Shown here: positions 11,481 to 64,000 of the stretch, in pieces
Layout: each line of letters begins with the position of its first letter
Position numbering within the stretch: the stretch's first letter is position 1
NCBI RefSeq assembly: GCF_016124105.1
Contig: NZ_JADGMQ010000011.1
Location: forward strand, 62,001 to 126,000
DNA length: 64,000 nucleotides
Direction: 5' to 3'
Source of the DNA: Aquamicrobium zhengzhouense
GTDB taxonomy: Bacteria; Pseudomonadota; Alphaproteobacteria; Rhizobiales; Rhizobiaceae
Made by a program: the position numbers and the translations under genes
Notes under the pieces: model-generated
What the model saw: only the letters and a program-made list of their open reading frames with translations
Told to the model about the DNA's origin: nothing
Databases searched by the model: none

Positions 11481-11502
11481 GTAGCGAAAACTTAGACCGT
11501 CG

Positions 11503-11640
11503 CGCCACCCCTCATCGCCCTGCCAGGCACTTCTCCCCGCAAGGGGGAGCAGAAGCTGTGGCTATCTCTTCAAGTAGCGAATATCGCTCCTCGCCCCGTT
11601 TACGGGGAGAGGATGCCGGCAGGCAGGTGAGGGGCAGCAC
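11503..11640. repeat. second type of palindromic intergenic element (~138 bp)
   Basis: The two ends form an imperfect inverted repeat: GCCACCCCTCATCGCCCTGC at the left pairs with the complement of the CAGGCAGGTGAGGGGCAGC right end, each followed inwards by a TCTCCCC/GGGGAGA block. It differs from the TCGTCGCTTCGCGA type next to it and resembles widespread rhizobial intergenic palindromes. It abuts the P450 3' end. Confidence 0.7.
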
Positions 11641-11656
11641 TGTGCCCTCACCTGCC

Positions 11657-13030: not shown

Positions 13031-13036
13031 CAACAC

Positions 13037-13377
13037 CTAGGAAGGGGCATGTAGAGGTTCAATCATTCATTGTCATTCACGAGATCACATAATCTGGACC
13101 AAACACGGATCTGACCAAATCGCATCTAAGTCAGCCTTACTGCCCTATCAATGCAACAATACTTAACGAGTGCATCAATTGCGCGACGGATGAACTGAGT
13201 TTTCTCAAAAATCCGGTCGAATAATGCGATGTGTTTCTTGCGTTGGCGATTCCTTTGTGCATCCTCAAGGAGTGGAACGAGCGACGGCAGATTGCTCGGC
13301 CAAGGGGAACGACCAGCCTCGGAGGAGGCGCACGAGTTAGGCGGGGCGTTCGCGCGCCTGCTATGTGTGAGGTGTGC
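13037..13377. other. intergenic region between divergent P450 and ABC operon
   Basis: About 340 bp, visibly richer in A/T than its surroundings, lying between two divergent transcription units and so expected to hold both promoters. Reading frames that cross it (for example an N-terminal extension of the ABC ATPase from 13231) lack homology-like features. No clear operator palindrome was recognised. Confidence 0.5.
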
Positions 13378-47551: not shown

Positions 47552-48010
47552 CTAAAGCTCAAGCACGACATATTCCTCATCAACCGAGATCTTGTAGACC
47601 TCTGTCTGATACGGCCCCTCAACAAGCCGCTTGCCCTGTTCGACCGCCACATCAAAGCTCTTCACGCGGGTACGGGCCGGGTCGCACCATGACTTTCCAG
47701 TGCGCAGGTCAAACTCCCAGCCATGCCAAGGGCAGCGCACCAGCTCGCCGTGCCGGCTGAGCTTGACGACGCCCGGATCGTCCGACTCGATCAGCGGGAC
47801 GACGTTGCCCTTGCAAAGATCGGCACCTTCATGCGGGCATCGATTGGCAATTGCGAGGAACTCACCCTTGACGTTGAAGATCGCAATGTCGCGACCCTCA
47901 ACATGAACCAGCTTCGACTTGCCTTCGGCAATCTCATCCACACGCGCTACAACGTGGCGCGCAGGCTCGCGCTTTGGTCGCCCGGTTGCGGTCATCTGCA
48001 CGGCGCTCAT
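47552..48010 (-). CDS. Rieske [2Fe-2S] ferredoxin-like protein
   Basis: 152 residues with one Rieske domain; cluster ligands C58 and H60 (CPHEG) and C93 and H96 (CPWHGWEF). There is no membrane anchor and no catalytic oxygenase domain, so it is either a ferredoxin component of an oxygenase encoded elsewhere or an electron carrier for a neighbouring enzyme. Its start overlaps the amidohydrolase stop by 4 bp, so the two are co-translated. Part of the catabolic cluster. Confidence 0.9.
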   Translation of the reverse strand: MSAVQMTATGRPKREPARHVVARVDEIAEGKSKLVHVEGRDIAIFNVKGEFLAIANRCPHEGADLCKGNVVPLIESDDPGVVKLSRHGELVRCPWHGWEFDLRTGKSWCDPARTRVKSFDVAVEQGKRLVEGPYQTEVYKISVDEEYVVLEL

Positions 48011-49113
48011 TTCTCGAGCCCGAACAGCTTGATCGCATTGTCACGGAAGATCGCGCTCTTCTCGGCCGGGGTGAGCGGAACCTTGAAGGCATAACGCGGA
48101 TCGTCGAAGTCCCAATGCGGGTAATCGGTCGAGAACATCAGGCGATCCGGACCGATCCAGCGCAGGATGTCGAGCAGGTGCGTGTTCTTCTCCGGCTCTT
48201 CAATCGGCTGGGTGGTGTACCAGAAGTTCTCAGCCGCATATTCCGACGGCTTGCGTTTGACGTGCGGAACCTCGCTGCGCATGCGTTTCCATTCGCGATC
48301 CATGCGCCAGAACAGCGACGGGAGCCACGAAAAACCGCCTTCGACGAGCACAATCTTGAGCTTCGGGAACTGCTCAAACACACCCTCCATGATCATGCTG
48401 CTCATGACCGTCTGAAGGCTGTTCGACGCGGCGAAATGTTCTTCAAGATAGAAGGACGACCAGCCGGAAGGCGTGTTCGGCCGGTAGCCGAAAGCGCTGG
48501 TGTGGAGACCGATCGGCAGCCCATAATGCTCGGCTGCTTCATAAATCGGCCAGTAGCGGCGACGACCTGCCGGTTCGATGGTACGCGGCGGCATTGCGAT
48601 CTGGACGAAACGGCGGTCGGTGACGCGCTTGTCGATCTCGGCCACCGCGTCCTTGGCATCTTCCTGCGGAATGCAGATTGAGGCGCGCAGGCGCGGTTCT
48701 GGACCGGCGAACTTGTCAATCTGCCAGTCGTTGAGCGCGCTGCATAGCGCGGCACCGAGCTCCATGTTGAACGCGACGCTGCCCGCTGCCAGCGGCTGCA
48801 GGATGCCATAGTCGATATTGCACTGCTCAAGAAGCTGTTCGCGCAAAAAGTCGAGGTCGGAGGCAGGCGGTCCACCCGCCGGCGGCCAGGAATCGCGACG
48901 CATGCCATTGCCCGGCGTCAGCCGCGGATAGGGCAAGGTCCCCAGGAGCGGGTTCGCGGTCCGGATGGCGTATTCGCGGATATGCTGCTTCCAGCGCTCC
49001 GGCAGATAATCGCTGAGCTGGTCGGGCCGGCTGAATGCCGGGTGAACGTCACAATCGACGACGCCAAGCGTTTCCGCCTTGTCGTCAGTGCGTTCGAGTA
49101 CGGACGTTTCCAT
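48007..49113 (-). CDS. amidohydrolase-family (Amidohydro_2) protein, copy 1
   Basis: 368 residues. TIM-barrel metal site residues are visible: Asp22-x-His24 in VVDCDVHPA, His in GLHTSAFG and the catalytic Asp in STDYPHWD. Members of this family decarboxylate or hydrolyse aromatic acids and ring-cleavage products (ACMSD, gamma-resorcylate decarboxylase, LigW types). The H-x-H of ACMSD is here D-x-H, so the activity may differ. A paralogue lies 2 bp upstream on the same strand, and the Rieske gene overlaps its end. Confidence 0.88.
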   Translation of the reverse strand: METSVLERTDDKAETLGVVDCDVHPAFSRPDQLSDYLPERWKQHIREYAIRTANPLLGTLPYPRLTPGNGMRRDSWPPAGGPPASDLDFLREQLLEQCNIDYGILQPLAAGSVAFNMELGAALCSALNDWQIDKFAGPEPRLRASICIPQEDAKDAVAEIDKRVTDRRFVQIAMPPRTIEPAGRRRYWPIYEAAEHYGLPIGLHTSAFGYRPNTPSGWSSFYLEEHFAASNSLQTVMSSMIMEGVFEQFPKLKIVLVEGGFSWLPSLFWRMDREWKRMRSEVPHVKRKPSEYAAENFWYTTQPIEEPEKNTHLLDILRWIGPDRLMFSTDYPHWDFDDPRYAFKVPLTPAEKSAIFRDNAIKLFGLEK

Positions 49114-49115
49114 GG

Positions 49116-50180
49116 TCAGCCTCCAAGTCTGGGATAGGTGGCAAGAACGTTATCGCGAAGAAGCTTGCTTACCGCGGCTTCGGGGAAGCCCTCCGGCAAC
49201 ACGTCGAGACCCTCGAAATTCCAATGCGGATAATCCGAGGAGAACAGCAGCATATCGTCGCTCAGCATATGGTCGAGCGCCTTGGCGACGTCCGCCGGAT
49301 CGTCTGGTCCATCGAACGGCTGCGAGGTGACACGAACATGGCGTCGGATGATTTCTGCCGGTGCATCCTTGACCCACGGAACTTCAATACGCGCGCCACG
49401 CCAGTCTTTCGACATGCGCCACATCAAAGGTGGAACCCAGGTGACACCCGACTCGATCGCGATCGCCTTGAGACCCGGATATTTGGTGAAGACACCTTCC
49501 GAGATCAGGCTTGCGATCTGGGTCGCAAAGCCCTGCGTATGCGCGATGTGATCCTCAATCAGGAAGGAATGGAAACCGCTGTGGCTTGGCGAGTTGCGAT
49601 AGTTCGACCCCGCATGGATGCCAAGCTGAAGCCCGTGCTTTTCTGCCGCTTCGTAGATCGGCCAATACACTCTGCGTCCGAGCGGCAGCTCTGTCGCCGA
49701 CAGCGTCAGGATCTGCACGAAGCGCTTGTCACCCGCCAGACGCTCGATCTCTTCAACCGCCGCTTCGACGTTCTGGAACGGGACCAGCATCGACGCGCGC
49801 AGGCGCGGATCGCGATCCAGCCATTTGTCGATCAGCCAGTCATTGGTGGCGCGGCAGATCGCGGCAGAAAGATAAGGATCAAATAGTGCGTGTGCACCTG
49901 ACACCACGTTGAGGATGGCGTGATCCAGCTTCAGCGGGTCAAGCAGGTTCCGCTGCATCGCCTCTAGCGGGTCGCCGCTCGTCTTCCAGTCCGGGCGCAT
50001 ATAGGGAAGCGTACGCTCTGGAAAAGCGTTCAACTCGAGGATGTCGACCTCTCGCGTGACGACGATCTCTTTCCAGTAGTCGTCAAGATAGGGATAGAGG
50101 TCGTCGCGACGCGGTGATGGAGGATGGACGTCGCAGTCGATCGCCCCGGTGGTGTCAAATCTGGACATTCTTGTATGCAT
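49116..50180 (-). CDS. amidohydrolase-family (Amidohydro_2) protein, copy 2
   Basis: 354 residues from the ATG at 50180; an ATG at 50168 is an alternative. It has the same layout as copy 1: Asp17-x-His19 in AIDCDVHPP, GIHAGSNY, and SSDYPHWN. The two proteins share many blocks (WPIYEAAE..GLxxGxH, HWxF) but are far from identical, so this is an old duplication. They may form a hetero-oligomer or act on successive substrates. First gene of the run 50180 to 47552. Confidence 0.88.
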   Translation of the reverse strand: MHTRMSRFDTTGAIDCDVHPPSPRRDDLYPYLDDYWKEIVVTREVDILELNAFPERTLPYMRPDWKTSGDPLEAMQRNLLDPLKLDHAILNVVSGAHALFDPYLSAAICRATNDWLIDKWLDRDPRLRASMLVPFQNVEAAVEEIERLAGDKRFVQILTLSATELPLGRRVYWPIYEAAEKHGLQLGIHAGSNYRNSPSHSGFHSFLIEDHIAHTQGFATQIASLISEGVFTKYPGLKAIAIESGVTWVPPLMWRMSKDWRGARIEVPWVKDAPAEIIRRHVRVTSQPFDGPDDPADVAKALDHMLSDDMLLFSSDYPHWNFEGLDVLPEGFPEAAVSKLLRDNVLATYPRLGG

Positions 50181-50228
50181 CTCGTGTGTGTTTAACGTAT
50201 GAAATAATTTAGGTTCAGATTCGGCTCC

Positions 50229-51854
50229 TCATGCAGCCTTCGCCTCCATCGCTTCCTCTTGAATGAAATCTGATGCCTTTTCGGCAATCATCACCGTTGC
50301 CGCCTGGGTGTTGCCCGAGACAATCACCGGCATGACCGACGCGTCAGCAACGCGCAGTCCTGACAGGCCGTGAACACGCAGCCGATCATCGACGACGGCC
50401 ATATGATCGCGGCCCATCTTGCAGGTGCCGACGGGATGGAAGGTCGTGTAGACGCTCTCGCGCGCATAGGCGATCAGCTCGTCACGCGACTGAACCTTCT
50501 GTGTCGGCGTGATCTCGTCTGGCTCGAAGCGGGCCATTGCCGCTCCGCCGGCGATCTTTCTCACCAACTCTACCGAGCGAATGGCAATTTCGATCTCGGA
50601 TTCGTGCTTGAGATAATTGTGCAGGATCTTCGGCTGCCGGGCCGGATCCGAAGATGCAATGTGGCTGTGGCCGCGGCTCTCAGGTCGCAAGATGCAAACC
50701 GAAGACGTGATGCCGGGAAACTTGTCCGGCTCGCCGCCGAAGGTCGATGAGGTCGCACCGGAAACGTGGATCTGAATGTCCGGCGCCGGTGCATGCGGAT
50801 CTGTCTTGGCGAAGACGCCAAGAAGGGTCGGCGAACCGCCAAGCGGACCCTTGCGCGTTGCAAGATAGCTGGCGCCAAGCATCATCCTGCGCAGCGGCGA
50901 GCTGACATGGTCGTTCAGCGTCCGCGTGTTCTTCAGCTTGTGCTGAACCTTGATATGCCAGTGATCCTGGAGATTTTCTCCAACGCCCGGAAGCTCGTGA
51001 TGCGTCTCGATGCCGAGCGCCGACAGGGTTTCGTGCGCCCCCACGCCCGAGCGCTCCAGGATGGCCGGGGAGCCGTAAACGCCAGCTGCCAGAATGATCT
51101 CGGCCGAGGCGGAGACGTCCACCTCCCGCTCGCCCAGCCGGAATTTCACCCCGGTTGCGCGCGTTCCGTCGAAGATAACGCGATCAACCAGCGCCCCGGT
51201 AACGATGTCCAAATTGCGTCGATTGCGCACGGGATCAAGAAAGGCGCGCGCGGTGGAGTGGCGGCGTCCCTTGCGGATCGTCGCGACAAACCAAGCCACA
51301 CCTTCATTGTCTCCGGAATTGTAATCTTCATTGGCCGGAATGCCGAGATCGATCGCAGCTTGGCGGTAGGCCTGCAGCGCTTCCCAACGGACCTTCGGGT
51401 CAAGCACGGACCACTCGCCGTCATTGCCATGCGCCTGGGCCGGGCGGTGAAACGCCTCCGAGCGACGGAAATAGGGCAGAACGCTTTCCCAGGACCAGCC
51501 GCGGTTCCCCAGCTGCGCCCATTGATCGTAATCATAGGCGTGGCCCCGTACATAAATCAGCCCGTTAATGCTGGAACTGCCCCCCAGCATCTTGCCCCGC
51601 GGCAGCGCAAGCGAGCGGCCATTCAGGTAGGGTTCCGGTTCGCTCTTGTAGCACCAATCAAAGCGGGGCCGGCCAAGCATGTATGCAACACCAAGCGGCA
51701 TGTCGACGTAAAAGCCGCGCCCGCTGCCGCCGCCCTCAATGAGAAGAACTTCGTTTTTGGGGTCCGCCGAGAGCCTGTTGGCCAGAACACAGCCCGCGGT
51801 GCCACCGCCCACAATGATGTAGGTGTAGGGGCGAGAGCGCTCAAAAATGCTCAT
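50229..51854 (-). CDS. GMC-family FAD oxidoreductase (choline/alcohol dehydrogenase-like)
   Basis: 541 residues. FAD-binding motif VGGGTAGCVLANRLS at the N terminus, GMC signature in GKMLGGSSSINGLIYVRGH, and the active-site His in TFHPVGTCKMG with a second polar residue in VSGNTQAATVMIAE. No signal peptide, so cytoplasmic or peripheral. It oxidises an alcohol to an aldehyde or ketone and feeds electrons to the respiratory chain. It starts after an AGGAGGAATT ribosome-binding site and is divergent from the binding-protein gene, sharing a 275-bp control region. Confidence 0.92.
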   Translation of the reverse strand: MSIFERSRPYTYIIVGGGTAGCVLANRLSADPKNEVLLIEGGGSGRGFYVDMPLGVAYMLGRPRFDWCYKSEPEPYLNGRSLALPRGKMLGGSSSINGLIYVRGHAYDYDQWAQLGNRGWSWESVLPYFRRSEAFHRPAQAHGNDGEWSVLDPKVRWEALQAYRQAAIDLGIPANEDYNSGDNEGVAWFVATIRKGRRHSTARAFLDPVRNRRNLDIVTGALVDRVIFDGTRATGVKFRLGEREVDVSASAEIILAAGVYGSPAILERSGVGAHETLSALGIETHHELPGVGENLQDHWHIKVQHKLKNTRTLNDHVSSPLRRMMLGASYLATRKGPLGGSPTLLGVFAKTDPHAPAPDIQIHVSGATSSTFGGEPDKFPGITSSVCILRPESRGHSHIASSDPARQPKILHNYLKHESEIEIAIRSVELVRKIAGGAAMARFEPDEITPTQKVQSRDELIAYARESVYTTFHPVGTCKMGRDHMAVVDDRLRVHGLSGLRVADASVMPVIVSGNTQAATVMIAEKASDFIQEEAMEAKAA

Positions 51855-51999
51855 GAATCAAAATTCCTCCTCCGCTCGGCTCGCCGGTCCCTCCTTTGCC
51901 TCAGCACCTGAGGCGACCCGCTTTCATGCCGCTTCGAGCTACTGCATCCTCACATGCAGCCCGCCACGGGGGAAGCTCGCACCGACAACTTAACGTAAT

Positions 52000-52011
52000 A
52001 ATGTATACATT
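52000..52011. promoter_or_regulatory. perfect 12-bp palindrome AATGTATACATT between GMC and binding-protein genes
   Basis: Lies in the 275-bp divergent region 51855-52129, about 145 bp from the GMC start and 118 bp from the binding-protein start. TGTATACA is the form of many GntR (FadR/VanR) operators. Similar sites are found at 59624-59635 and 59752-59762. Confidence 0.6.
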
Positions 52012-52129
52012 GAAACGCCCTTGTTATAGGCTCCACATGTGCGGAGGCTGCGGTCCGGGGGGAGTCTGGACACGTCCGCTGCACTGTTCCGTCTCACGGG
52101 CTTCATATGCTTATCTGGGAGGTGTTTAG

Positions 52130-53716
52130 ATGAGCGATATTCGGGACGCCGGTGCGTCCTTTACCCATTTCAATATCAGCCGCCGCGCTCTGCTCGGTGC
52201 AGGTGCCGCAATTGGCGCGTCGATGATGCTGCCCGCGGCGGCGCATGCTCAGGCATCCGAGCCTGTTTCCGGCGGCACCTTGCGTATCGCAATGCCGTTC
52301 AATCCGGCGGCGCTCGACCCGATTACCGGTCGCAACATCCCGGACTTCAATGCACTTTACGCGCTGTTCGATGCGCTGGTCGGCTATGATCCGGACACGC
52401 TTGAACTTGAGCCGATGCTGGCAAAGGACTGGACCTTCGCCGACGGTACGACGCTCGTGCTCAACCTTGTTGAGGGGGTTGAATTCCACGACGGAACCCC
52501 GCTCGATGCCGAAGCAGTCAAGTTCAACCTTGAGCGTTCGATGACGCATCCGCGGTCCAACGTGCAGTCTGACCTGGCCTCTGTCGAAAGCGTTGAGGTC
52601 AGCGGTCCGCATCAGGTAACGCTGCGTCTCAAGCATGAGAACTACTCGCTTCCGACGATCCTGACCGGACGTGCCGGCTGCATGGTCTCTCCGGCATCGA
52701 TCCAGGCAGCAGAAGAAGGCAATGTCGATCGCGCACCGGTTGGAACGGGACCGTTCAAGTTCATCGAATGGCGGGACAATGACCTGATCAGGGTCGAGAA
52801 GAACCCGAAATACTGGCAGGCGGGCCTGCCCTATCTCGATGGCATCGATTTCAGGATCATCAACGAACTGAACACCGGCGCACGCACGGTCGGCGCTGGC
52901 GAATCTGATCTGGCCCTGAACCTCGCAGCGCAGCAGATCGCTACCAACCAGCGCAACAGCGATCTGGTCGCCGAGGCCAAGCCCTCGATGATCTTTTTCT
53001 CCCTGATGCTCAACTTCGCCAAGGCGCCACTTGATGATGTGCGTGTGCGTCAGGCCATGAACTACGCCATCAACCGTGACGAGTTGAACAAGGTGCTGAT
53101 GCTGGGCCTTGGTGAGCCGACGTCGACCATGTTCCCTTCAGATTTCTGGGCGGTGAACAAGGATACGGCCCATTACTACCAGCATGATCCGGAGAAGGCG
53201 AAAGCACTTCTTGCCGAGGCGGGACATCCGGACGGCGTCGAAATCGAAGCGTGGAGCTGGCCGGACCAGACCTCGATCCAACGCATCGAACTCGTCGGCA
53301 ATCAGCTGGAACAGGTTGGCATCCGGCTGAAGATCAACCCCTCCCCGCCGCAGGTGGTGAACCAGCATTTCTACATTGAAGGCCAGGGCTCCCTGATCCT
53401 GAACCCGCAAGGTGGCTGGCTTGATCCGAGCCAGACCTACGACCGTCTGTTCGGCGCTGCCGGCCAGTTCAATGCGGGCAAGGTCGAAGATCCGAAGTTC
53501 CGCGAACTGCTCGACGCTACCGGCAAGTCACCAGATCTTAAGGAGCGTCAGGAAGCCTTCGCCGCCTTGCAGAATTTTGTTGTCGAGCAAGCGCTGCATG
53601 TGCCGCTATACACATCTTCGGCAATGTCGGTCCGCACCAAGAAGGTTCAGGATTTCCGCTATGACCGGCTGCACTCACCGCGTTTCCACCGGGTGTGGTT
53701 GAGCAACGACGCCTGA
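52130..53716 (+). CDS. family-5 extracellular solute-binding protein (Dpp/Opp/Nik type), copy 1
   Basis: 528 residues with a twin-arginine signal (ISRRALLGAGAAIGASMML) followed by the SBP_bac_5 fold (GGTLRIAMPFNPAALDPITG, NVDRAPVGTGPFKFIEW). Exported folded through Tat, it captures a ligand for the ABC transporter at 53813-59491. It is clearly paralogous to copy 2 (55810-57378). The ribosome-binding site is GGGAGG. It is transcribed alone, away from the other transporter genes. Confidence 0.92.
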   Translation: MSDIRDAGASFTHFNISRRALLGAGAAIGASMMLPAAAHAQASEPVSGGTLRIAMPFNPAALDPITGRNIPDFNALYALFDALVGYDPDTLELEPMLAKDWTFADGTTLVLNLVEGVEFHDGTPLDAEAVKFNLERSMTHPRSNVQSDLASVESVEVSGPHQVTLRLKHENYSLPTILTGRAGCMVSPASIQAAEEGNVDRAPVGTGPFKFIEWRDNDLIRVEKNPKYWQAGLPYLDGIDFRIINELNTGARTVGAGESDLALNLAAQQIATNQRNSDLVAEAKPSMIFFSLMLNFAKAPLDDVRVRQAMNYAINRDELNKVLMLGLGEPTSTMFPSDFWAVNKDTAHYYQHDPEKAKALLAEAGHPDGVEIEAWSWPDQTSIQRIELVGNQLEQVGIRLKINPSPPQVVNQHFYIEGQGSLILNPQGGWLDPSQTYDRLFGAAGQFNAGKVEDPKFRELLDATGKSPDLKERQEAFAALQNFVVEQALHVPLYTSSAMSVRTKKVQDFRYDRLHSPRFHRVWLSNDA

Positions 53717-53735
53717 GAATAAGCATCACGCAAAG

Positions 53736-53766
53736 AAAAAGCCCGGTTCGAAGCCGGGCTTTTTTG
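53736..53766 (+). terminator. bidirectional terminator after binding protein copy 1
   Basis: GCCCGG stem extended by A-T pairs (53736-53746 with 53754-53764), flanked by A5 on one side and T6 on the other, so it can end both the binding-protein transcript and the convergent permease operon. Confidence 0.85.
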
Positions 53767-53812
53767 GTTGGTGCAGCGGGGCAGAAGCTGCCCCATTGAC
53801 GATGCTTGCAGA

Positions 53813-54724
53813 TCAGTTCTTCTTGACCGTCGGATCGAGCAGCACGCGGATCGATTCACCCAATGTGTTGAAGGCGAGCGCGGTGAAAAGGATCGCGAAG
53901 CCTGGTGCATACATCTGCTCAGGTGCCACCTCCACATAGTGGTAGGCGCGTGCAAGCATTCCGCCCCAGCTCGATTCTGGCGGCTGCACACCAAGCGAAA
54001 GGAAGCTCAAGCCAGCTTCCGCCAGCAGCGCGACCGCCAGCATCAGCGTGATCTCGACGATGACCGGCTGGATTGCGTTGGGGATGATGTGACGAATGAT
54101 CAGGTGAAGCCGCGATGCGCCAAAACCTGTTGCCGCTTCGACATAGAGTGCGTTCTTCACCACCAGCGTCTGTGCACGCATCGTGCGTGCGAGCACGGGC
54201 GCGAAGGCAAAGCCCACCGCGATCATCGCATTGGTCAGGCCGATGCCCAGCGCTCCTGTCACCGCAACGGCGAGAACGATCGGCGGGAACGCCAGCACGC
54301 CGTCAATGATGCGGCTGCCGGCTTCATCGACCCAACCGCCGACGAAACCGATGAATACGCCCATCGGCACGCCGATGATGACGCCGATGCCCACCGCAAG
54401 ACCAGCCGCGTACAATGCATTGTAAGAGCCGTGCATGAGACGGCTCAGCGTGTCGCGGCCAAGATCGTCCGTTCCAAGCCAATGCTCGGTGCTGGGCGGC
54501 GCCAGCATGTTCATCAGGTCCTGCTGGTTCGGTGCGTATGGTGCGATGAACGGAGCAAGCACCGCCGCCGCGACAAGCACCGCAATATAAGCAAGACTGA
54601 CCATTGCGCGCTTGTCCGACCACATCCAGCGCCAGAAGCTGAAACGCGTGGGCGGAGGAAGACCGGAGGCGGCGGCAGTTGCCGGATTGGGCGTGTTCAT
54701 GGAGGTCACAGTGCTATCAGTCAT
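53813..54724 (-). CDS. DppC-type ABC transporter permease
   Basis: 303 residues with about six membrane helices. The N-terminal OppC-like domain has APYAPNQQDLMNM and HWLGTDDLGRDTLSRLMHG; the EAA loop is in VEAATGFGASRLHLIIRHII. Pairs with the DppB-type permease, whose stop overlaps its start by 4 bp. Last gene of the operon 59491-53813. Confidence 0.93.
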   Translation of the reverse strand: MTDSTVTSMNTPNPATAAASGLPPPTRFSFWRWMWSDKRAMVSLAYIAVLVAAAVLAPFIAPYAPNQQDLMNMLAPPSTEHWLGTDDLGRDTLSRLMHGSYNALYAAGLAVGIGVIIGVPMGVFIGFVGGWVDEAGSRIIDGVLAFPPIVLAVAVTGALGIGLTNAMIAVGFAFAPVLARTMRAQTLVVKNALYVEAATGFGASRLHLIIRHIIPNAIQPVIVEITLMLAVALLAEAGLSFLSLGVQPPESSWGGMLARAYHYVEVAPEQMYAPGFAILFTALAFNTLGESIRVLLDPTVKKN

Positions 54725-55680
54725 GTCGTAGCCGCCACTCTCGGATCGAAGATCGAATTGAGGACGTCCACCAGCAGGTTTGTCAGAATGACAACCAGGA
54801 CGAGGACGAGCGCGACGCCCTGAACGACAGGGAAGTCCTTGTTAAGTGCAGAATAGCTGATGAGGTTGCCAACGCCGGGGATGGCAAACACCGCCTCGAC
54901 GATGACCGCGCTCGAGAACAGGCGGTTCACCTGAAGGCCTGCAATGGTCAGCATGGTGGCTGCAACGTTGCGCAGTCCGTGCTTCCAGAGGATGGCTCCC
55001 GAGCTCAGGCCCTTTGCACGAAGCGTTCGGATATATTGCGAACCGAGAACCTCAAGCAGAGCGCTTCGCACCTGGCGAGCCAGCACGGCCACCACGCCAG
55101 TCGACAGCGCTATGGCTGGCAAAGTCGCGAAATACAGCGCCTTTACAGGATCCTCGAAGAAGGAGGTCGCTCCCGTCGCCGGGAACCAGCGATAATTCAG
55201 CGAGAACATGGTGACAAGGATGATACCCAGCCAGAAGTTGGGGATGGCGACACCCAGCGACGCGACGCTGGTGATGACCTTGTCCAGCGTTGTGCCCTGG
55301 CGGGTAGCTGCCAGAATGCCGAGCGGAACGCCGATCAGGGCACCGACGATCAGCGCGTAGACGACGAGAAGGATGGTATGGGGCAGACGCGCGAGGATGA
55401 GCGTCAGCACGGACTCGTTTGAAAACAGCGAGCGCCCCAGATCACCGATGGCAACATTGCCCAGCCAGGCGAAATATTGCACCAGCATAGGCCGGTCAAA
55501 GCCATAGATACGGCGGATTTCTTCTACGCGCTCTTCCGTCGCATAGTCGCCAGCGATGGTCACCGCCGGATCGCCGGGCATCAGGTAGACAAGGGAAAAG
55601 ACCACGAAAGTGGCCACGATCATGACCGGCACGAGCTGAATAAGCCTTCGTGCGATCATCCCGGGTATGCCGTTCATCAT
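54721..55680 (-). CDS. DppB-type ABC transporter permease
   Basis: 319 residues from the ATG at 55680 (GGAGCAGG upstream). Six membrane segments; typical YLMPGDPAVTIAG, GDLGRSLFSNESV and EAA loop YIRTLRAKGLSSGAILWKHG. It forms the channel with the DppC-type partner. It lies between the second binding-protein gene and the DppC-type gene. Confidence 0.93.
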   Translation of the reverse strand: MMNGIPGMIARRLIQLVPVMIVATFVVFSLVYLMPGDPAVTIAGDYATEERVEEIRRIYGFDRPMLVQYFAWLGNVAIGDLGRSLFSNESVLTLILARLPHTILLVVYALIVGALIGVPLGILAATRQGTTLDKVITSVASLGVAIPNFWLGIILVTMFSLNYRWFPATGATSFFEDPVKALYFATLPAIALSTGVVAVLARQVRSALLEVLGSQYIRTLRAKGLSSGAILWKHGLRNVAATMLTIAGLQVNRLFSSAVIVEAVFAIPGVGNLISYSALNKDFPVVQGVALVLVLVVILTNLLVDVLNSIFDPRVAATT

Positions 55681-55809
55681 CCTGCTCCGTCGATCGGCAG
55701 TTTTGCAACTCGAAGAGCCCTTCGAGCGCTGGTTCACCGGGCGGTATGGCCCGATGCAAGCAAGCGGAAAGCGGGCGGAAAATTTCTCCGCCCGCGAATG
55801 TTAGAAATA

Positions 55810-57378: not shown

Positions 57379-57419
57379 GTTTCTCTCTCCTCCATCAGAA
57401 TTCAGCCGCCCCAAGCTCC

Positions 57420-58478
57420 TCAGGTCGGCAAGGTCTGCGCTGCGGCAACCGATGCCCCTGCCGGTTGTACGACAGTGTTTTGCGCCACCTCGCTGAGCAT
57501 CTCCTCCGCGAAATGGCAGGCCACGAAGCGTCCTGGCAGCAATTCCCGCTGAACCGGTTCCTGCGCGCTGCAAGCCTCGCGTGCTCGTGGGCAACGGGTA
57601 TGGAAACGGCAGCCGCTTGGCGGGTTGATCGCGCTCGGGATTTCGCCCTGCAGGATGATCCGCTGGCGCGCATCGTCGCCGAGCGCGGTAATCTCAGGTT
57701 CAGCCGAGCGCAGCGCGCTCGTATAGGGGTGCAACGGCGTCTCGATGACTTCACGCGCCGGCCCAAACTCGACGATCTTGCCGAAATACATCACGGCCAC
57801 GCGGTCGCTGATGTGGGAGACGACGCGCAGATCATGGCTGATGAATACGTAAGTCAGCCCGAGTTCTTCCTGCAGACGTGCGAAAAGGTTGAGCATGTCC
57901 GCCTGGATCGACACGTCGAGCGCTGCAACCACCTCGTCGCAGACGATGACGTTGGGGTCGAGCATCAGGGCGCGCGCGATGTTTGCGCGCTGCTTTTGAC
58001 CACCTGACAATTCGTGCGGGTAGCGATTGGCAAGCTCAGGCGAGAGCGCCACTCGATCAAGCATCGCGAACGCTTTGGCGCGACGCTCGGCGCGCGTTCC
58101 CTGCCCGGCAATGCTGAGCGGTTCCATCACGCTCTGCAGGATGGTCATGCGCGGATCAAACGCTGCGTTCGGGTCCTGCGAAACGATCTGGTACTTGCGC
58201 CGATGGCGGTTGAGCTCACGGCGCGACAGTGTGAACGGGTCAAGATCGTCATGCAGGATCTTGCCTCCGCTTGGCGTCAGCAGGCAGACCATGGAGCGAC
58301 CAAGCGTCGATTTTCCCGAACCGGACTCGCCGATCACTCCAAAGATCTCGCCCCTGCGTACATTGAAGCTCACGCCATCGACCGCGCGGATCTGCGTGCC
58401 ACGCTTGCTGCTGCCGAAAGTGACACGCACGTCCTCGACAGTGACGGCGGGGCGGGCGGTGGACACATCGATCGTCAT
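57420..58478 (-). CDS. DppF-type ABC transporter ATPase
   Basis: 352 residues. Walker A GESGSGKST, signature LSGGQKQRANIARAL, Walker B VIVCDEVVAALD (the usual EPT is EVV here) and a C-terminal oligopeptide domain with a CxxxxP...C cluster (GCRFHTRCPRAREAC). Pairs with the DppD-type ATPase, overlapping its stop by 4 bp. Proteins with this cysteine-rich tail bind an iron-sulfur cluster in some homologues. Confidence 0.93.
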   Translation of the reverse strand: MTIDVSTARPAVTVEDVRVTFGSSKRGTQIRAVDGVSFNVRRGEIFGVIGESGSGKSTLGRSMVCLLTPSGGKILHDDLDPFTLSRRELNRHRRKYQIVSQDPNAAFDPRMTILQSVMEPLSIAGQGTRAERRAKAFAMLDRVALSPELANRYPHELSGGQKQRANIARALMLDPNVIVCDEVVAALDVSIQADMLNLFARLQEELGLTYVFISHDLRVVSHISDRVAVMYFGKIVEFGPAREVIETPLHPYTSALRSAEPEITALGDDARQRIILQGEIPSAINPPSGCRFHTRCPRAREACSAQEPVQRELLPGRFVACHFAEEMLSEVAQNTVVQPAGASVAAAQTLPT

Positions 58479-59491
58479 GCGCCGAGCCTTTCCAGTTCAA
58501 GTGAATCCCAGCGGTGGCACCGCACTTCACGGTGGCCGGAAAGTTCAATTGCCTGCGGTGCCTGGCATGGCGGCACAGCGTAACCACAGCGCGGACCGAA
58601 GCGGCATCCCTCGGGCATGGCGCGCAAAGACGGGACACGGCCCGGGATCGACGGCAAGGTGCCACGAGCACGGCGGCTATCGGGAATGGAAGACAGGAGC
58701 CCCGCAGTATAGGGGTGACGCGGCTCGGCAATCACTTCCTTGACCGGTCCGCTTTCAACCACCTGCCCCGCATACATCGTAACCATGCGGTGGCAGCTCT
58801 GCGCCACAAGACCGAGATTGTGGGTGATGAACATGATCGCAGTGCCGGTGCGCTCGCCAAGATCCAGCAGCAGATCCATGATCTGCGCCTGAATGGTCAC
58901 ATCAAGCGCCGTTGTCGGCTCATCGGCAATCAGAAGCTGCGGCTCGCAGACCAGCGCCATCGCGATCATCACACGCTGACGCATGCCACCCGATAGGCTC
59001 ATCGGATAGAGCGTCGCGACGTGGCGGGGCGATGCAATGCCGACGGAATCCAGCGCTGCGATTGCGCGCTCCTGGGCCTCCTTCTTGCTGATGCGGAAAT
59101 GGCGCATCAGCGTTTCCTCGATCTGGTAACCGACCGTGAAAACAGGATCCAGCGCGCTCATCGGCTCCTGGAAGATCATCGAAATGTGGCGTCCGCGGAT
59201 GCGGCTCATCTGCGATTCGGAATTGGTAACGAGATTTTGGCCGCCGAACAGGATCTGGCCACCGAGGCGCGCATCGCGAGGCGGCAACAGACGAAGGATC
59301 GACAAGGCCGTCATCGACTTGCCGCAACCGCTCTCACCGACGACTCCGAGGATCTCCTTGGGCTTCACCGAGAATGATACGTTGTTAAGGACTTCGACCC
59401 AGCCATTCTGATCGCGCAGCGACAGAGTCAGATTCTGGATGTCCAAAAGTGATTCCTGGCCACCCGAAATGGTCCCGGCAAGCTGATTCAT
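58475..59491 (-). CDS. DppD-type ABC transporter ATPase
   Basis: 338 residues from the ATG at 59491, with GGGAGGAAG upstream; ATG codons eleven codons earlier are in frame. Walker A GESGCGKSM, signature LSGGMRQRVMIAMAL, Walker B LLIADEPTTALD, and the C-terminal RCGYAVPPCQ motif. First gene of the transporter operon DppD-DppF-binding protein-DppB-DppC. Confidence 0.93.
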   Translation of the reverse strand: MNQLAGTISGGQESLLDIQNLTLSLRDQNGWVEVLNNVSFSVKPKEILGVVGESGCGKSMTALSILRLLPPRDARLGGQILFGGQNLVTNSESQMSRIRGRHISMIFQEPMSALDPVFTVGYQIEETLMRHFRISKKEAQERAIAALDSVGIASPRHVATLYPMSLSGGMRQRVMIAMALVCEPQLLIADEPTTALDVTIQAQIMDLLLDLGERTGTAIMFITHNLGLVAQSCHRMVTMYAGQVVESGPVKEVIAEPRHPYTAGLLSSIPDSRRARGTLPSIPGRVPSLRAMPEGCRFGPRCGYAVPPCQAPQAIELSGHREVRCHRWDSLELERLGA

Positions 59492-60047
59492 CCGGCGCAC
59501 TTCCTCCCTTGCTGCCCGCATCATCGTGCTGTGATGCAGGTGGCTCTGTTTCGCAGGAACACTCTGTGAGTGTCAGGCCTGGCGCCTCCGCACCAACCCG
59601 CTGCCCCTCCCGAAACCTTGGTTCATGTATACAATACCCATCCCCATGGGGAAAGAGGCTTGCATTAGAACTCCGAAAAAAAGCGTTGCTTGACTAATGG
59701 GCGACAAAACGAGCCTCAAACGGGCCAAAACGGGCAAATCCAGCTGATGCACCGTATACAGGACGCGGTTTTAGGAGATTTTGCCCACACCGCGCCGCTC
59801 ATTCGCAACCCAACATACGCGACAAGGTGAAGCCTCACCGCGACAAATGCACACAAAAAATAACCTGTTCAATAAATGCGGGCGGGAAACGGCTGGCGAC
59901 CGCTCTCTGCCTGTTTGCGAATGGATCGTGCCATCCGGCCCGCCAACCTCCGGCGCCGCCTCACTCCGCCCTGCGCGTGAGGATCTGGCCCTGTCGCATG
60001 AACGACAGGCCCTCTCCCGACATCCCGTTGCGAATCAGGCGATCACA
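59492..60047. promoter_or_regulatory. 556-bp upstream region of the transporter operon with two TGTATACA-type sites
   Basis: Contains ATGTATACAA (59625-59634) and CCGTATACAGG (59752-59762), both related to the perfect palindrome at 52000-52011. It separates the transporter operon from the dehydratase gene on the same strand. Reading frames here (for example 59781-60131) run into the neighbouring gene antisense and look non-coding. No gene is seen. Confidence 0.5.
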
Positions 60048-61934
60048 TCAGCGGGTCGGCATGCCCTTGGGGCGAAGGTGCCTTTTTTGGGCAGCGATCC
60101 GGAACGGCGCATTGGGGCCACCATATCCTGAATAGTTGTCGCGGCGCTCGATGATCTCGAAGATCAGCCCATCGCCCCAAGTCGGCGCATAAAGCTGGAA
60201 GAACTCGCCCTTGTCGTCGCGGTCGTAAAGAATGTTCTCCGCGCGCAGAAGGTCAGCAAGCTCTGGCTCGAGGCCAAAGCGGGCTTCGACGTCGTCATAA
60301 TAGTTCGGCGAGATTTCGAGCGGGGCGAAACCCGCTTCTTTCAGCGCACGCGCGGTGGCGAAAATATCGCTGGTCGCGAAGGCGACGTGCTGAACGCTAG
60401 AGCCAAAGCTTTCGCTGATAAAACGGCCGGCGAGCGTGCGGCGATTTTCCGCGCCGTTCAGCGTCAGGCGGAACGCGCCGTCTTCGCTTTCGATCACCTG
60501 ACTGCGCACGACACCTGCCGGATCGATGACGTCGACCATCGGCGTTTTGCGGGTGCGGAAAATGGAAGTGTAAAACAGGAGCCAGGACAACATCTCACCC
60601 TGCTCCATCGTCTGACCGATGTGGTCGACCGTGGTAAGCCCTGCACCGGGTTTGTCGCCTTCGACCCGCTTGAAATCAATGTCCCAGACTTGGCCAAGAT
60701 CATCGCTGGAATCGAGAAAATAGATGACGCTGCCGCCAACGCCGCGGATCGCCGGGATCGTCAGTTCGCCGGCCCCGACCGGCTGCTCGAACGGCTCGAC
60801 GCCCAGCGCGCGGGCACGTTCGACGGTTGCCCGCGCATCCTCAACCTTGAGCGCGATCGCGTAGACCGACGTGCCGTGGACGAGGAAGGACGAATGGGCA
60901 AAGCCCGAACGCTCGGTGTTGATCAGAATATTGATGTCGCCCTGACGCCAGAGCACGACATCTTTCGAGACATGGCGACCAGCTTCGACAAAGCCCATCG
61001 ACGATAACAGCTTGCCGATCGAGGCAGCGCCAGCCTCGTCAGCCGCGAACTCGATGAAGGCAACGCCCTCGACGCCGACAGGCGCTGGCATCGGCGGCAG
61101 ATTGACCGGCAGCGCCGGCTCGTCGCGACGCACCTTGTCCATCAGCCAGATCAGCGAGCGGTGGCCGTCATCGGCAATCGCGCGTGGCGAGCCGCCACGG
61201 AACTGGTCGTTGAAGATCTCGAGTGAGATGTAGCCGTCATAACCGGTCGCCGTGACCGCGCGCATGAATTCGGCAACCTGGAGGTCCCCCTCGCCCGGCA
61301 TGTTGCGATAGTGGCGGCTCCAATAAAGAAGGTCCATGTCGATCGCGGGCGCGTCAGCCAGCTGAACGAAGAAGATCTTGTCCTTCGGGATCGAGCGGAT
61401 CGTGTTCGGATCGATCTTACGCGCCAGCGTATGAAAGGAATCGACGATCAGGCCGATATTCGGATGATCCGCGCGCCGCACGATCTCCCACGCATCGCGA
61501 TGATCGCTGACGTGACGGCCCCAGGCCAACGCTTCGTAGCCAATGCGAATGTTTCGCTTTGCAGCCCGTTCGCCAAGTTCGCGAAAATCGTCAGCGGCGC
61601 GGTCGATGCCGCCGAGCGACACAGGTGAAACAGAGGAGCAGACCAGCATGAGGTCGGTGCCAAGCTCGGCCATGACGTCGAACTTGCGCTCCGCCCGGTC
61701 AAAGGCGCGCTGTCGTTGAGGTTCAGGCAGTCCCTCGAAATCGCGAAACGGCTGGTAGAGCGTGATTTCCAGGCCCACATCCGCGGCCATCTTCGCGACT
61801 TCGCGCGGCGAGCCGTCGAAGGCGAGAAAATCGTTCTCGAAAATCTCGATACCGTCAAAACCGGCCGCGGCGATTGCAGCAAGCTTCTCACTGAATTCGC
61901 CGCTGATGGAAACGGTGGCGATAGACGTCTTCAT
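60048..61934 (-). CDS. 3-dehydroshikimate dehydratase / 4-hydroxyphenylpyruvate dioxygenase-like fusion (QuiC type)
   Basis: 628 residues from the ATG at 61934 (GGGGGAAG upstream; the frame extends 23 codons further without homology). The N-terminal ~270 residues form an AP-endonuclease-2/xylose isomerase-like TIM barrel with metal ligands likely in YEALAWGRHVSDH, DSFH and SLEIFNDQF. The C-terminal ~330 residues form an HPPD-like vicinal-oxygen-chelate domain with His in VDHIGQTM and VQHVAFAT and a late Glu in FEIIERRDNY. This fusion is known for bacterial enzymes that turn 3-dehydroshikimate into protocatechuate. It is divergent from the LysR gene. Confidence 0.88.
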   Translation of the reverse strand: MKTSIATVSISGEFSEKLAAIAAAGFDGIEIFENDFLAFDGSPREVAKMAADVGLEITLYQPFRDFEGLPEPQRQRAFDRAERKFDVMAELGTDLMLVCSSVSPVSLGGIDRAADDFRELGERAAKRNIRIGYEALAWGRHVSDHRDAWEIVRRADHPNIGLIVDSFHTLARKIDPNTIRSIPKDKIFFVQLADAPAIDMDLLYWSRHYRNMPGEGDLQVAEFMRAVTATGYDGYISLEIFNDQFRGGSPRAIADDGHRSLIWLMDKVRRDEPALPVNLPPMPAPVGVEGVAFIEFAADEAGAASIGKLLSSMGFVEAGRHVSKDVVLWRQGDINILINTERSGFAHSSFLVHGTSVYAIALKVEDARATVERARALGVEPFEQPVGAGELTIPAIRGVGGSVIYFLDSSDDLGQVWDIDFKRVEGDKPGAGLTTVDHIGQTMEQGEMLSWLLFYTSIFRTRKTPMVDVIDPAGVVRSQVIESEDGAFRLTLNGAENRRTLAGRFISESFGSSVQHVAFATSDIFATARALKEAGFAPLEISPNYYDDVEARFGLEPELADLLRAENILYDRDDKGEFFQLYAPTWGDGLIFEIIERRDNYSGYGGPNAPFRIAAQKRHLRPKGMPTR

Positions 61935-62011
61935 CGCTTCCCCCAATTCAAGTCCGGACCGATATTGCCTCGGTCGAGAAATAACGGCAAATACCGATTT
62001 CAACTTCCACG

Positions 62012-62024
62012 TAACATCACGTTA
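62012..62024. promoter_or_regulatory. dyad T-N11-A LysR-type box between dehydratase and LysR genes
   Basis: TAAC, five bases, GTTA: a 13-bp interrupted palindrome of the T-N11-A form bound by LysR regulators. It lies in the ~100-bp divergent region, 12 bp before the LysR start and 78 bp before the dehydratase start, fitting autorepression with activation of the dehydratase. Confidence 0.6.
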
Positions 62025-62035
62025 ATCAGTATGGG

Positions 62036-62968
62036 GTGGACCTTACGGTGAGTGAGCTTACGCTTCGGCAAGTCGAAGCCATCCGCGCGGTGATGTTGGC
62101 CGGGACAATTCAGGGGGCAGCGCGTCTCCTCAATGTGTCTCCACCGGGCATCTCACGCATCGTACGCCATACGGAAGACAGCCTTGGCATTCGCCTCTTC
62201 GAACGGAAGGCCGGGCTTTTCGTTCCCTCTCCCGAAGCGACATCGATCTTTGAGCTGGTGCATCAGGTGCACCGGCAGATGGAAAATCTGAACACGGCAG
62301 TGGCATCGCTCAGGAAAGGCAGCGATGTCAGGCTGACCTTCGCATGCGCACCTTCCATCGCGCAGTTCATCGCTGCGCGTGCGGCGCGGCGCATACGCCA
62401 GCGCTTTCCCGATCTCTACATCGACATGAACATCCTCAAGATCGAGGAAACGACGGATTATCTGCTGCTGGAACGGGGCGAGTTCGTCATCATGAGTTCC
62501 GCAGTAGAAAACCCCGCCCTGGAAAGCGTCAAACTGGCGGAAGGCCGTTTGGTGGCGATCGTCCCCGACAATCACCCTTTGGCCAAAAAGGAGGTGATTT
62601 CAGTTCACGATCTGGCCAAGGAGGATCTTGTTGGCGTCGATTCCGGCGATCCGTACGGCGCAACCCTGGCGCGTCCCTTTGCTCAACATGGTCTCAGCCC
62701 CACTTACGCGATGCGCGGCCGCTTCGCGCAGACGGTTGTCAGCTTCGTGCGCCATGGCCTTGGCGTCGCCGTCATCGATGAATTTTCGGTGGCTGAGGTC
62801 TACATGCCAGGCATCGCGCGTCGGCCGCTTGCTGAAGCCGCCAGCATTTCGGCATTTGCAGTCAGTCGCAAGGGAAGCCAGCTCTCCTCCTTCGCGGAAC
62901 TGGCGATCGCGCAGTTTCGCCGCGAATTGCTGAAAACCACATCAAGGCAAGGGTTCGAGACCGACTAG
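62036..62968 (+). CDS. LysR-family transcriptional regulator
   Basis: 310 residues from a GTG at 62036; a second GTG five codons in is possible. The N-terminal winged helix (LRQVEAIRAVMLAGTIQGAA, NVSPPGISRIVRHTEDSLG) is followed by a periplasmic-binding-like effector domain (~95-295). The divergent gene is usually the target, here the dehydratase fusion. The effector could be a shikimate/quinate intermediate, which is inference. Confidence 0.92.
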   Translation: MDLTVSELTLRQVEAIRAVMLAGTIQGAARLLNVSPPGISRIVRHTEDSLGIRLFERKAGLFVPSPEATSIFELVHQVHRQMENLNTAVASLRKGSDVRLTFACAPSIAQFIAARAARRIRQRFPDLYIDMNILKIEETTDYLLLERGEFVIMSSAVENPALESVKLAEGRLVAIVPDNHPLAKKEVISVHDLAKEDLVGVDSGDPYGATLARPFAQHGLSPTYAMRGRFAQTVVSFVRHGLGVAVIDEFSVAEVYMPGIARRPLAEAASISAFAVSRKGSQLSSFAELAIAQFRRELLKTTSRQGFETD

Positions 62969-63068
62969 ATCACCGCTCTGGACCAGACCAGAGCCGTTTC
63001 CTGCCATCGCCACAGCCCTGATCACCGCACTATGCTGCCCCGCGAGGATGCATAAGGGAGGTTGATGG

Positions 63069-64000
63069 ATGGCTGGTCAGATACCCGCTTCGGCACGTGC
63101 CGTCATCATCGGCGGTGGTGTTTCAGGCTGTTCGGTTGCCTATCACCTTGCCAAGCTTGGCTGGACCGACATCGTGCTTTTGGAGCGCAAGCAGCTGACT
63201 TGCGGCACGACATGGCATGCGGCGGGGCTTGTCGGCCAGCTTCGCGCCTCGCCCAACATGACCCGCCTCGCCAAATATTCCGCCGACCTCTACGTGCGGC
63301 TGGAGGAAGAGACCGGCGTTGCAACAGGCATGCGGCAGGTCGGCTCAATAACGGCTGCTCTGACCGATGAGCGTATGCATGAACTGCGCCGCCAGGCTTC
63401 AATGGCGCGGGCGTTCAAGGTCGATGTCGGTGAATTGTCGCCGTCCGAGATCAAGGCGATGTACCCGCATCTCAACATTGAGGGCGTGGTCGGCGGCGTG
63501 CATCTACCGCTTGATGGCCAGTGTGATCCAGCGAATATCGCGATGGCTTTGGCCAAAGGCGCTCGCCAGCGTGGCGCGGCGATCATCGAAGGCGTCAAGG
63601 TGACGTCTGTTGCCAAGAAGAATGGGCGCGTTTCCGGCGTTTCTTGGCAGCGCGGCGAGGAGCACGGCACGATCGCCACGGACATCGTCATCAATTGCGC
63701 CGGCATGTGGGGCCGCGATCTTGCCGAACAATCGGGCGTGACCCTGCCGCTCCATGCCTGCGAGCACTTTTATCTCGTCACCGAGCCGATCGAGGGCCTG
63801 TCGCGCCTTCCGGTTCTACGCGTTCCCGACGAGTGCGCTTATTACAAGGAAGATGCCGGCAAAATGATGCTCGGCGCCTTCGAGCCGGTCGCCAAGCCAT
63901 GGGGCATGAACGGCATTTCCGAAGATTTCTGCTTCGACCAGCTGCCCGAAGATTTCGCGCATTTCGAACCGATCCTCGAAATGGGCGTCAACCGCATGCC
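63069..64000 (+). CDS. FAD-dependent oxidoreductase, dimethylglycine/sarcosine dehydrogenase-like, cut by window edge
   Basis: About 310 residues are visible from the ATG at 63069 with AGGGAGG seven bases upstream; an overlapping ATG at 63065 is in another frame. The N terminus has a dinucleotide-binding motif (VIIGGGVSGCSVAYHL), then the flavin-attachment-like CGTTWHAAGLVGQLR, typical of DMGDH/SARDH-type DAO-family proteins that usually carry a C-terminal GcvT tetrahydrofolate domain (outside the window). It would demethylate an N-methyl amino acid. It may be co-regulated with the LysR gene 100 bp upstream or belong to a separate unit. Confidence 0.88.
   Translation, partial: MAGQIPASARAVIIGGGVSGCSVAYHLAKLGWTDIVLLERKQLTCGTTWHAAGLVGQLRASPNMTRLAKYSADLYVRLEEETGVATGMRQVGSITAALTDERMHELRRQASMARAFKVDVGELSPSEIKAMYPHLNIEGVVGGVHLPLDGQCDPANIAMALAKGARQRGAAIIEGVKVTSVAKKNGRVSGVSWQRGEEHGTIATDIVINCAGMWGRDLAEQSGVTLPLHACEHFYLVTEPIEGLSRLPVLRVPDECAYYKEDAGKMMLGAFEPVAKPWGMNGISEDFCFDQLPEDFAHFEPILEMGVNRM

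Follow-up and report, generated by a model that had tools for sequence, protein, structure and literature searches.

We analysed a 64,000-nucleotide window of the Aquamicrobium zhengzhouense genome (contig C3, positions 62001-126000, of a 4.07 Mb genome). At positions 47552-64000 we identified genes that very probably form a self-contained uptake-and-hydroxylation regulon around an oxygenase of the AibH1H2 type. The cluster encodes two PF04909 proteins (here H1 and H2), a small Rieske ferredoxin, a GMC flavoprotein, and a Dpp-family ATP-binding cassette (ABC) importer with two substrate-binding proteins (SBP1 and SBP2). The family membership of these proteins, the metal ligands, the gene order, a conserved operator-like site (TGTATACA) and the linkage of importer and oxygenase genes are observed directly.

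In the proposed scheme, a small and probably non-peptide solute would be imported by the Dpp-family transporter using its two related receptors. Cytoplasmic H1H2, with H2 as the catalytic and H1 as the partner subunit, would hydroxylate a C-H bond with O2, the electrons being delivered by the Rieske ferredoxin. A reductase encoded elsewhere in the genome would feed the ferredoxin, and the GMC flavoenzyme would then oxidise the new alcohol. A regulator reading TGTATACA would control both halves of the cluster. The oxygenase activity, the GMC role and the regulation are what we infer from the features above, as is the order of steps, in which our confidence is moderate.

In a PDB sequence search, the nearest relative of H2 is AibH2 (E = 1.3e-94, 44% identity) and that of H1 is AibH1 (E = 2.1e-72). 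The first eight matches of each subunit are all AibH1, AibH2 or chains of 8sm6-8sm9. PF04909 decarboxylases are far behind (for 5-carboxyvanillate decarboxylase, E = 1.5e-18 with H2 and 1.3e-8 with H1).

The accessible text of the AibH1H2 study lists Asp25, His27, His211, Glu265, Asp337 and His340 as ligands of AibH2, with Asp342 in the second sphere, and an acidic residue at the Asp342 position is said there to mark dinuclear members (PMC7782822). In our alignment, D22, H24, H204, E258, D330, H333 and D335 of the window's H2 occupy these seven positions, and the three histidine and three carboxylate ligands of AibH2 are thus present. None of the 94 aligned rows deviates at any of the seven; these rows comprise 93 genes, drawn from 87 of the 88 sequence sources, and the window again as reference. 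The H1-type subunit keeps the single-metal ligands D17, H19, H189, E243, D316 and H319. Among 89 aligned H1 rows, Asp17 is found in 79 (gap in 10), His19 in 81 (gap in 8), His189 in 87 (Gln in one, gap in one), Glu243 in 88 (Gly in one), and Asp316 and His319 in all 89. The position of H1 equivalent to Asp342 is never acidic in these rows: it is Gln in 65, His in 22 and Asn in two, both of which come from the window (Asn321). As judged from these alignments, the split of ligands between H2 and H1 is the pattern reported for AibH2 and AibH1.

We predict with high confidence that H1H2 is an amidohydrolase-related dinuclear oxygenase (ARO) of the AibH1H2 type. Because its sequence, metal ligands and partner genes fit a dinuclear monooxygenase, the predicted step is O2-dependent C-H hydroxylation, and not the hydrolysis or decarboxylation suggested in a preliminary description of this DNA. 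Ala49, Cys98 and Ala229 of H2 are fixed in the group of closest relatives (12 rows, with the window counted twice) and were not seen elsewhere in the aligned set. These residues are candidate specificity determinants.

Most of the relatives come from the 80 best of 593 matches to the window's H2, and 79 loci were fetched. All 79 hold both subunits, and a Rieske gene lies within the fetched stretch in 60. A called H1 gene is directly upstream on the same strand for 88 of 93 H2 genes (median gap 1 nt), and the Rieske gene is directly downstream in 53 of these 88 pairs. Identities of H1 and H2 correlate (Pearson 0.94, Spearman 0.54; 85 pairs, 3570 comparisons), with species relatedness not removed. 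Five H2 genes have no called H1. Two of these (the first copy in L011, and L087) do have H1 by tblastn or annotation, missed by the gene caller; L041 is at the end of its contig, L073 has no adjacent H1, and in L089 the gene lies behind an insertion sequence (IS). The L089 locus (11170-13059, on a Sulfitobacter plasmid) has its H2-type gene directly behind an IS5-like transposase, without H1 upstream; the downstream genes encode a Rieske protein, a further ferredoxin and a flavin oxidoreductase. In four loci (L015, L024, L025 and L026) a lone Rieske gene comes after two tandem H1-H2 pairs, an arrangement that would suit a ferredoxin shared between two oxygenases. H2 homologues with 31-38% identity were also seen on haloarchaeal plasmids (Halobaculum, Haladaptatus, Natrinema and others).

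A second H1-H2-Rieske triad occurs in the A. zhengzhouense genome itself (L005 8474-11100; G000 C26), with identities to the window's proteins of 62% (H2), 58% (H1) and 63% (Rieske). It adjoins a LysR gene, and genes for a xanthine-dehydrogenase-type molybdenum (Mo) hydroxylase, a luciferase-like monooxygenase and an AbrB-family protein are nearby.

We defined a window-type group from ten fetched loci whose H2 shares 70% identity or more with that of the window, plus G240 and G350, giving twelve; two of the loci (L007 and L086) are from one species. The same Dpp-type importer adjoins the oxygenase in all twelve. Triads outside the group adjoin different importers, including Ugp-like ABC systems and, as single cases, TctABC (L018), TRAP (L017) and an SBP_bac_8-type ABC importer (L016). 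The DppD-type ATPase of L011 (12196-13228) also failed a whole-gene search; it reads in two frames and may be broken or reflect a sequencing error.

The two receptors are 55% identical. An SBP2 orthologue (cut-off E = 1e-130, three candidates scored per genome) was found in three of 394 genomes of the family, namely the window's own, G240 and G350, and in each it is beside the oxygenase and GMC genes. SBP2 has Gly in alignment with Asp408 of DppA, which we take to be the ligand of the peptide amine, and SBP1 by eye has Gly-Gly at the same motif. Since SBP2, and by eye SBP1, are without the DppA Asp, the imported solute is probably not an ordinary peptide, and probably non-peptide in nature. 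The PDB relatives of SBP1 and of the GMC protein indicated no substrate. The GMC protein is choline-dehydrogenase-like, scoring 484 bits against a cut-off of 732 for betA (TIGR01810) and 568 against 605 for the wider PRK02106, and it is encoded in the cluster of eight of the twelve window-type relatives. Uptake by a peptide-type transporter with two receptors, as previously described, is borne out by the Dpp-family importer and its two SBP_bac_5 receptors, and the GMC enzyme fits the alcohol oxidation proposed with it.

Exact copies of the operator-like palindrome TGTATACA occur twice in the 64 kb (52002 and 59626), with 0.04 expected, and none of 100 shuffles reached two. With two mismatches allowed, 13 sites were found against a mean of 5.84, which is only about twofold enrichment. 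Both exact sites are in control regions of importer/oxygenase genes. The 59626 site precedes the DppD-type start by about 135 bp, and the palindrome is 140-144 bp upstream of the DppD-type gene in five of five further genomes (L126-L130). It is also upstream of this gene in L086, L011, L012, L013, L022, G240 (L144) and G350 (L145). Two copies precede the Rieske-H1-H2 genes in L012, L013 and L022, and none was found there in L011. The GMC/SBP1 site is exact in the same-genus genome G240 (L143), and paired one-mismatch sites, 85-86 bp apart, occupy this region in seven of seven other GMC-bearing loci. Because the loci are related, and two are of one species, these counts are not independent.

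Judged by the shared site, the importer, the divergent SBP1, the GMC gene and the oxygenase appear to be one regulon. The single regulon with shared operator-like sites that had been proposed for the region is upheld for the importer, GMC, amidohydrolase-type and Rieske genes. It does not extend to the QuiC-like, LysR and DAO-domain genes, at which no exact TGTATACA occurs within the window. By its motif type, TGTATACA is a putative GntR/FCD-type operator, and its probable reader is a regulator of the GntR/FCD type. The sole FCD regulator gene found near a relative (in L129) was rejected as the regulator, because a search of the window's own genome at E = 1e-25 gave no counterpart.

Several observations weigh against the proposed regulon and its mechanism, or limit how far they can be taken. 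Part of the conservation of the H2 ligands is to be expected because the relatives were picked as the best 80 of 593 H2 matches. The 44% identity to AibH2 is uninformative about substrate, and the predicted cofactor is Fe2 or Mn/Fe, metal content not being readable from sequence. The GMC gene is missing from L011, L012, L013 and L022, four of the twelve window-type clusters, so it is not essential. H1H2 has no adjoining Rieske gene in five window-type loci (L007, L009, L010, L014 and L086), in which a search down to E = 1 gave a single 25% match, in L014. Family searches recognised no ferredoxin reductase gene in the window's cluster, homologues of the reductase probes were found in only two of the 79 genome loci (L018 and L073), and the window's own genome encodes three proteins homologous to the L018 reductase over their full length (39-41% identity), all unlinked to the cluster. 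Finally, TGTATACA has 26 sites in the genome, compared with six for a reversed control pattern, and most are away from the cluster.

Since no reductase is encoded in the cluster, the one feeding the ferredoxin must come from elsewhere in the genome. Six annotated plasmid loci were picked by hand out of 301 matching plasmid records, and in five of them a reductase is near the triad; the triad of L018 is likewise accompanied by a ferredoxin reductase and a Fer2 ferredoxin. With probe homologues in only two of 79 loci, a linked reductase is the exception in the locus set. One of the three unlinked candidates is beside ferredoxin, P450 and TRAP genes. A VanB-type reductase was rejected as a candidate (best match in the window's own genome only E = 3.6e-11). 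We also rejected a reductase co-regulated through other genomic TGTATACA sites: the ferredoxin near two sites (L108) adjoins a dihydropteroate-synthase-like gene and by eye looks like a housekeeping protein. Genomic TGTATACA sites (L107-L125; C12, C20, C29 and others) lie upstream of genes for TRAP receptors, a Mo hydroxylase, a GCV_T protein and a PF04909 protein. Because such sites precede other transporters and enzymes, TGTATACA serves more than the oxygenase cluster.

The genomes of L007, L009, L010 and L014 encode a Rieske protein elsewhere (73-75% identical), and one ferredoxin may thus serve two oxygenases. A fuller version of the uptake-and-hydroxylation proposal, which we put forward tentatively and rate at rather less than even, is an undescribed pathway in which a Mn/Fe or Fe2 oxygenase with an amidohydrolase fold would hydroxylate a non-peptide solute other than 2-aminoisobutyrate (Aib), the GMC enzyme would take the alcohol, and in relatives without a local ferredoxin the single Rieske protein of a second triad would serve both oxygenases.

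The QuiC-like gene has a full-length match to the QuiC-type 3-dehydroshikimate dehydratase family NF042435 (703 bits against an equivalog cut-off of 1200), and its protein is an AP_endonuc_2 barrel fused to an HPPD-like half. QuiC-type genes (E = 1e-80) are present in 70 of 151 genomes of the family and H2 (E = 1e-60) in five, all of which also carry QuiC. In the four H2 genomes other than the window's, QuiC and H2 are on different contigs in three (draft assemblies) and 156 kb apart in one. A search of eight genomes with a window-type oxygenase, a set without the genome of L012, found QuiC in five, never within 19 kb of the oxygenase where both are on one contig. Eight QuiC flanks (about 4-5 kb on each side), sampled from the 69 other genomes with a match, contain no H1, H2, Rieske, GMC or DAO-domain gene and no counterpart of the window's LysR gene. 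One flank includes a remote PF04909 homologue, with 28% identity to H2, and two, L132 among them, have an adjoining shikimate dehydrogenase gene, one recognised by family search and one by eye.

From the side of the oxygenase, the QuiC and DAO-domain genes are absent from the fetched stretches of all 79 loci, and the DMGDH-like gene (that with the DAO domain), QuiC and LysR are absent from L126-L130 and L086. Co-occurrence of the H1-H2 pair with the Rieske gene and, within the window-type group, with GMC, which the preliminary description had named as a check, was found at the frequencies given above. G240 keeps QuiC and LysR by the importer (L144 4245-10692) with one GFO/IDH/MocA gene between, and has a GCV_T protein at the place of the window's DMGDH-like gene, so that these two genes flank QuiC-LysR there. 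Because QuiC and LysR adjoin the importer only in the window's own genome and G240 among the genomes examined, their link to it is, as far as the present evidence goes, one of proximity within the genus, with no operator to support it. The QuiC-like gene is likely a separate shikimate/quinate-type module outside the oxygenase regulon. QuiC, LysR and the DMGDH-like gene lie next to the cluster without belonging to it; the last was rejected as a part on its absence from the 79 stretches.

Three other explanations of the region were weighed against the uptake-and-hydroxylation regulon. An N- or O-demethylase, in which H1H2 and its Rieske protein (H1H2G) would hydroxylate an N- or O-methyl group to release formaldehyde and DMGDH-like or GFA-type enzymes would take the one-carbon unit, is unlikely. 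O2-dependent N-dealkylation of buffer-like surrogates is described for SfbO in the accessible part of its report (PMC10811679). GFA-like (formaldehyde-activating type) genes occur in six of the 79 fetched stretches (L011, L018, L019, L021, L027 and L038; the Pfam check covered L011), one of them window-type. However, in that sole window-type case (L011) the gene, from a broad family, is 8 kb from the pair. The DMGDH-like gene is near by in the window, but it has the distribution described above, is without the operator, and is replaced in G240 by another protein; a GMC alcohol oxidase would also be superfluous.

An Aib or peptaibol-fragment pathway is decidedly unlikely. Here the importer would take up Aib or Aib peptides, H1H2G would form alpha-methylserine, and the GMC enzyme would replace the NAD-dependent dehydrogenase AibD1. 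The H1-H2-G order, the identity to AibH2 and the membership of the importer in a peptide family are consistent with this, but the identity is compatible with another substrate and SBP2 has Gly at the DppA Asp408 position. Within the cluster, to which the search was confined, there is no family match for AibD1, AibE, AibC or AibA. The window group also has its own fixed Ala49, Cys98 and Ala229, of which Ala229 aligns with SfbO Arg235 at a position where AibH2 has His.

Least probable, and very improbable in our view, is the pathway ending in protocatechuate favoured by the preliminary description, in which the PF04909 proteins would be hydrolases or decarboxylases (both occur in that family) and the whole block from Rieske to DMGDH would feed QuiC: QuiC-LysR is beside the cluster in the window and in only one relative examined, of the same genus, the nearest solved relatives are oxygenase subunits, H2 keeps the Asp that marks dinuclear members, QuiC is far commoner than H2 and mostly unlinked to it in the family, the sampled QuiC flanks lack the oxygenase genes and the 79 fetched oxygenase stretches lack QuiC, and neither QuiC nor LysR has TGTATACA.

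Published pathways were also compared. Open-access literature searches returned no paper uniting a Rieske protein, an amidohydrolase and a GMC oxidoreductase and no description of the window's pathway, and no title on such a cluster was among the matches listed for Aib, peptaibol and rhizobia. Homarine catabolism was set aside: among the papers listed in the open-access search, one mentioned homarine, and its title was on another subject. Riboflavin catabolism was rejected because the Rieske protein there is, in the accessible part of that paper, a component of a classical dioxygenase system (PMC12746152).

The genes listed in the preliminary description for 47552-64000 are all present and in frame (Table 1). 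Comparison with relatives places the start of SBP2 at about 57390, the TTG at 57594 in the mechanical list of open reading frames being too far upstream. The DppD-type ATPase probably starts not at 59524 but near 59491, at the Met where its orthologues in L126-L130 begin. The Rieske gene overlaps the end of the H2 gene by 4 bases. In the genome, the DMGDH-like gene is full length at 817 aa, with DAO, FAO_M, GCV_T and GCV_T_C domains. Near the end of contig C3 (L006 5986-7353) are two short genes with curlin repeats.

Table 1. Genes and operator-like sites at 47552-64000 of the window; functions are predictions from sequence.
Feature	Position	Strand	Evidence
AibG-like Rieske [2Fe-2S] ferredoxin, predicted electron donor	47552..48010	-	PF00355, E = 1.6e-18; CPH...CPWH cluster motif
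AibH2-like catalytic subunit (H2), dinuclear site	48007..49113	-	PF04909; best PDB match an AibH2 chain
AibH1-like partner subunit (H1), single metal site	49116..50180	-	PF04909; best PDB match an AibH1 chain
GMC flavoprotein oxidoreductase, predicted oxidiser of new alcohol	50229..51854	-	PF00732/PF05199
Operator-like palindrome TGTATACA, divergent GMC/SBP1 control region	51995..52016 (core 52002-52009)	.	exact match
Substrate-binding protein 1 (SBP1), SBP_bac_5, divergent	52130..53716	+	PF00496
ABC permease, DppC/OppC type	53813..54724	-	PF00528 and OppC_N
ABC permease, DppB/OppB type	54721..55737	-	PF00528 and BPD_transp_1_N
Substrate-binding protein 2 (SBP2), SBP_bac_5	55810 to about 57390	-	PF00496
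ABC ATPase, DppF/OppF type	57420..58478	-	domain/family search
ABC ATPase, DppD/OppD type	58475..59491	-	domain/family search
Operator-like palindrome TGTATACA, upstream of DppD-type gene	59619..59640 (core 59626-59633)	.	exact match
QuiC-like gene	60048 to about 61934	-	family match
LysR gene	62036..62968	+	family match
DAO-domain DMGDH-like gene	from 63069, cut by window edge	+	family match

Few oxygenases of this kind have an assigned substrate. In the accessible parts of the literature, substrates are known for AibH1H2 and PtmU3, and SfbO was assayed with a surrogate (PMC7782822, PMC10401708, PMC10811679). The dedicated two-receptor importer and the conserved operator-like site make the substrate of the window's oxygenase approachable through receptor ligands and induction, a route that is easier than guessing enzyme substrates. 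The cluster also illustrates how, in rhizobial genomes, a probable monooxygenase may go unrecognised under an 'amidohydrolase' annotation.

Two characterised systems can be compared with the cluster, each as described in the accessible parts of its papers. SfbO and other AROs (PDB 8sm6-8sm9; PMC10811679) share with the window the PF04909 dinuclear ligand set and a Rieske gene near by. SfbO is 38% identical to the window's H2, and was produced and crystallised by itself, with no H1-type partner (PMC10811679). Its sulfate-site residues Arg232 and Arg235 are His226 and Ala229 in the window's H2; because of these replacements, an SfbO-like sulfonate substrate is not suggested. Residue 280 of SfbO, Asp in the numbering used here and Tyr in the paper, was left out of the comparison.

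In the Aib monooxygenase of Rhodococcus, AibH1H2 is the hydroxylase and is supplied by AibG, a Rieske ferredoxin, and AibF, a reductase; the gene order is H1-H2-G-F (PMC7782822). The system of R. wratislaviensis (PMC7782822, PMC10401708) and the window share two PF04909 subunits and a small Rieske protein in H1-H2-G order, the metal ligands in each subunit, and a solute uptake gene in the cluster. Uptake in the aib cluster is by an amino acid permease, whereas the window has the two-receptor Dpp-type ABC importer, and GMC stands in the window in place of AibD1/AibE. Unlike the aib cluster, the window's has no linked AibF reductase, AibC or AibA; AibF is present in the aib cluster, and the accessible text does not state it as a requirement of the class (PMC7782822). 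The window also differs from the aib system in having the TGTATACA site and in that its nearby LysR gene is not part of the cluster. The earlier statement that the region matches no described pathway holds for the pathway and not for the core enzyme. The enzyme class is already published and, on the sequence comparisons and the accessible parts of the reports, the core enzyme matches the aib monooxygenase (PMC7782822, PMC10401708, PMC10811679).

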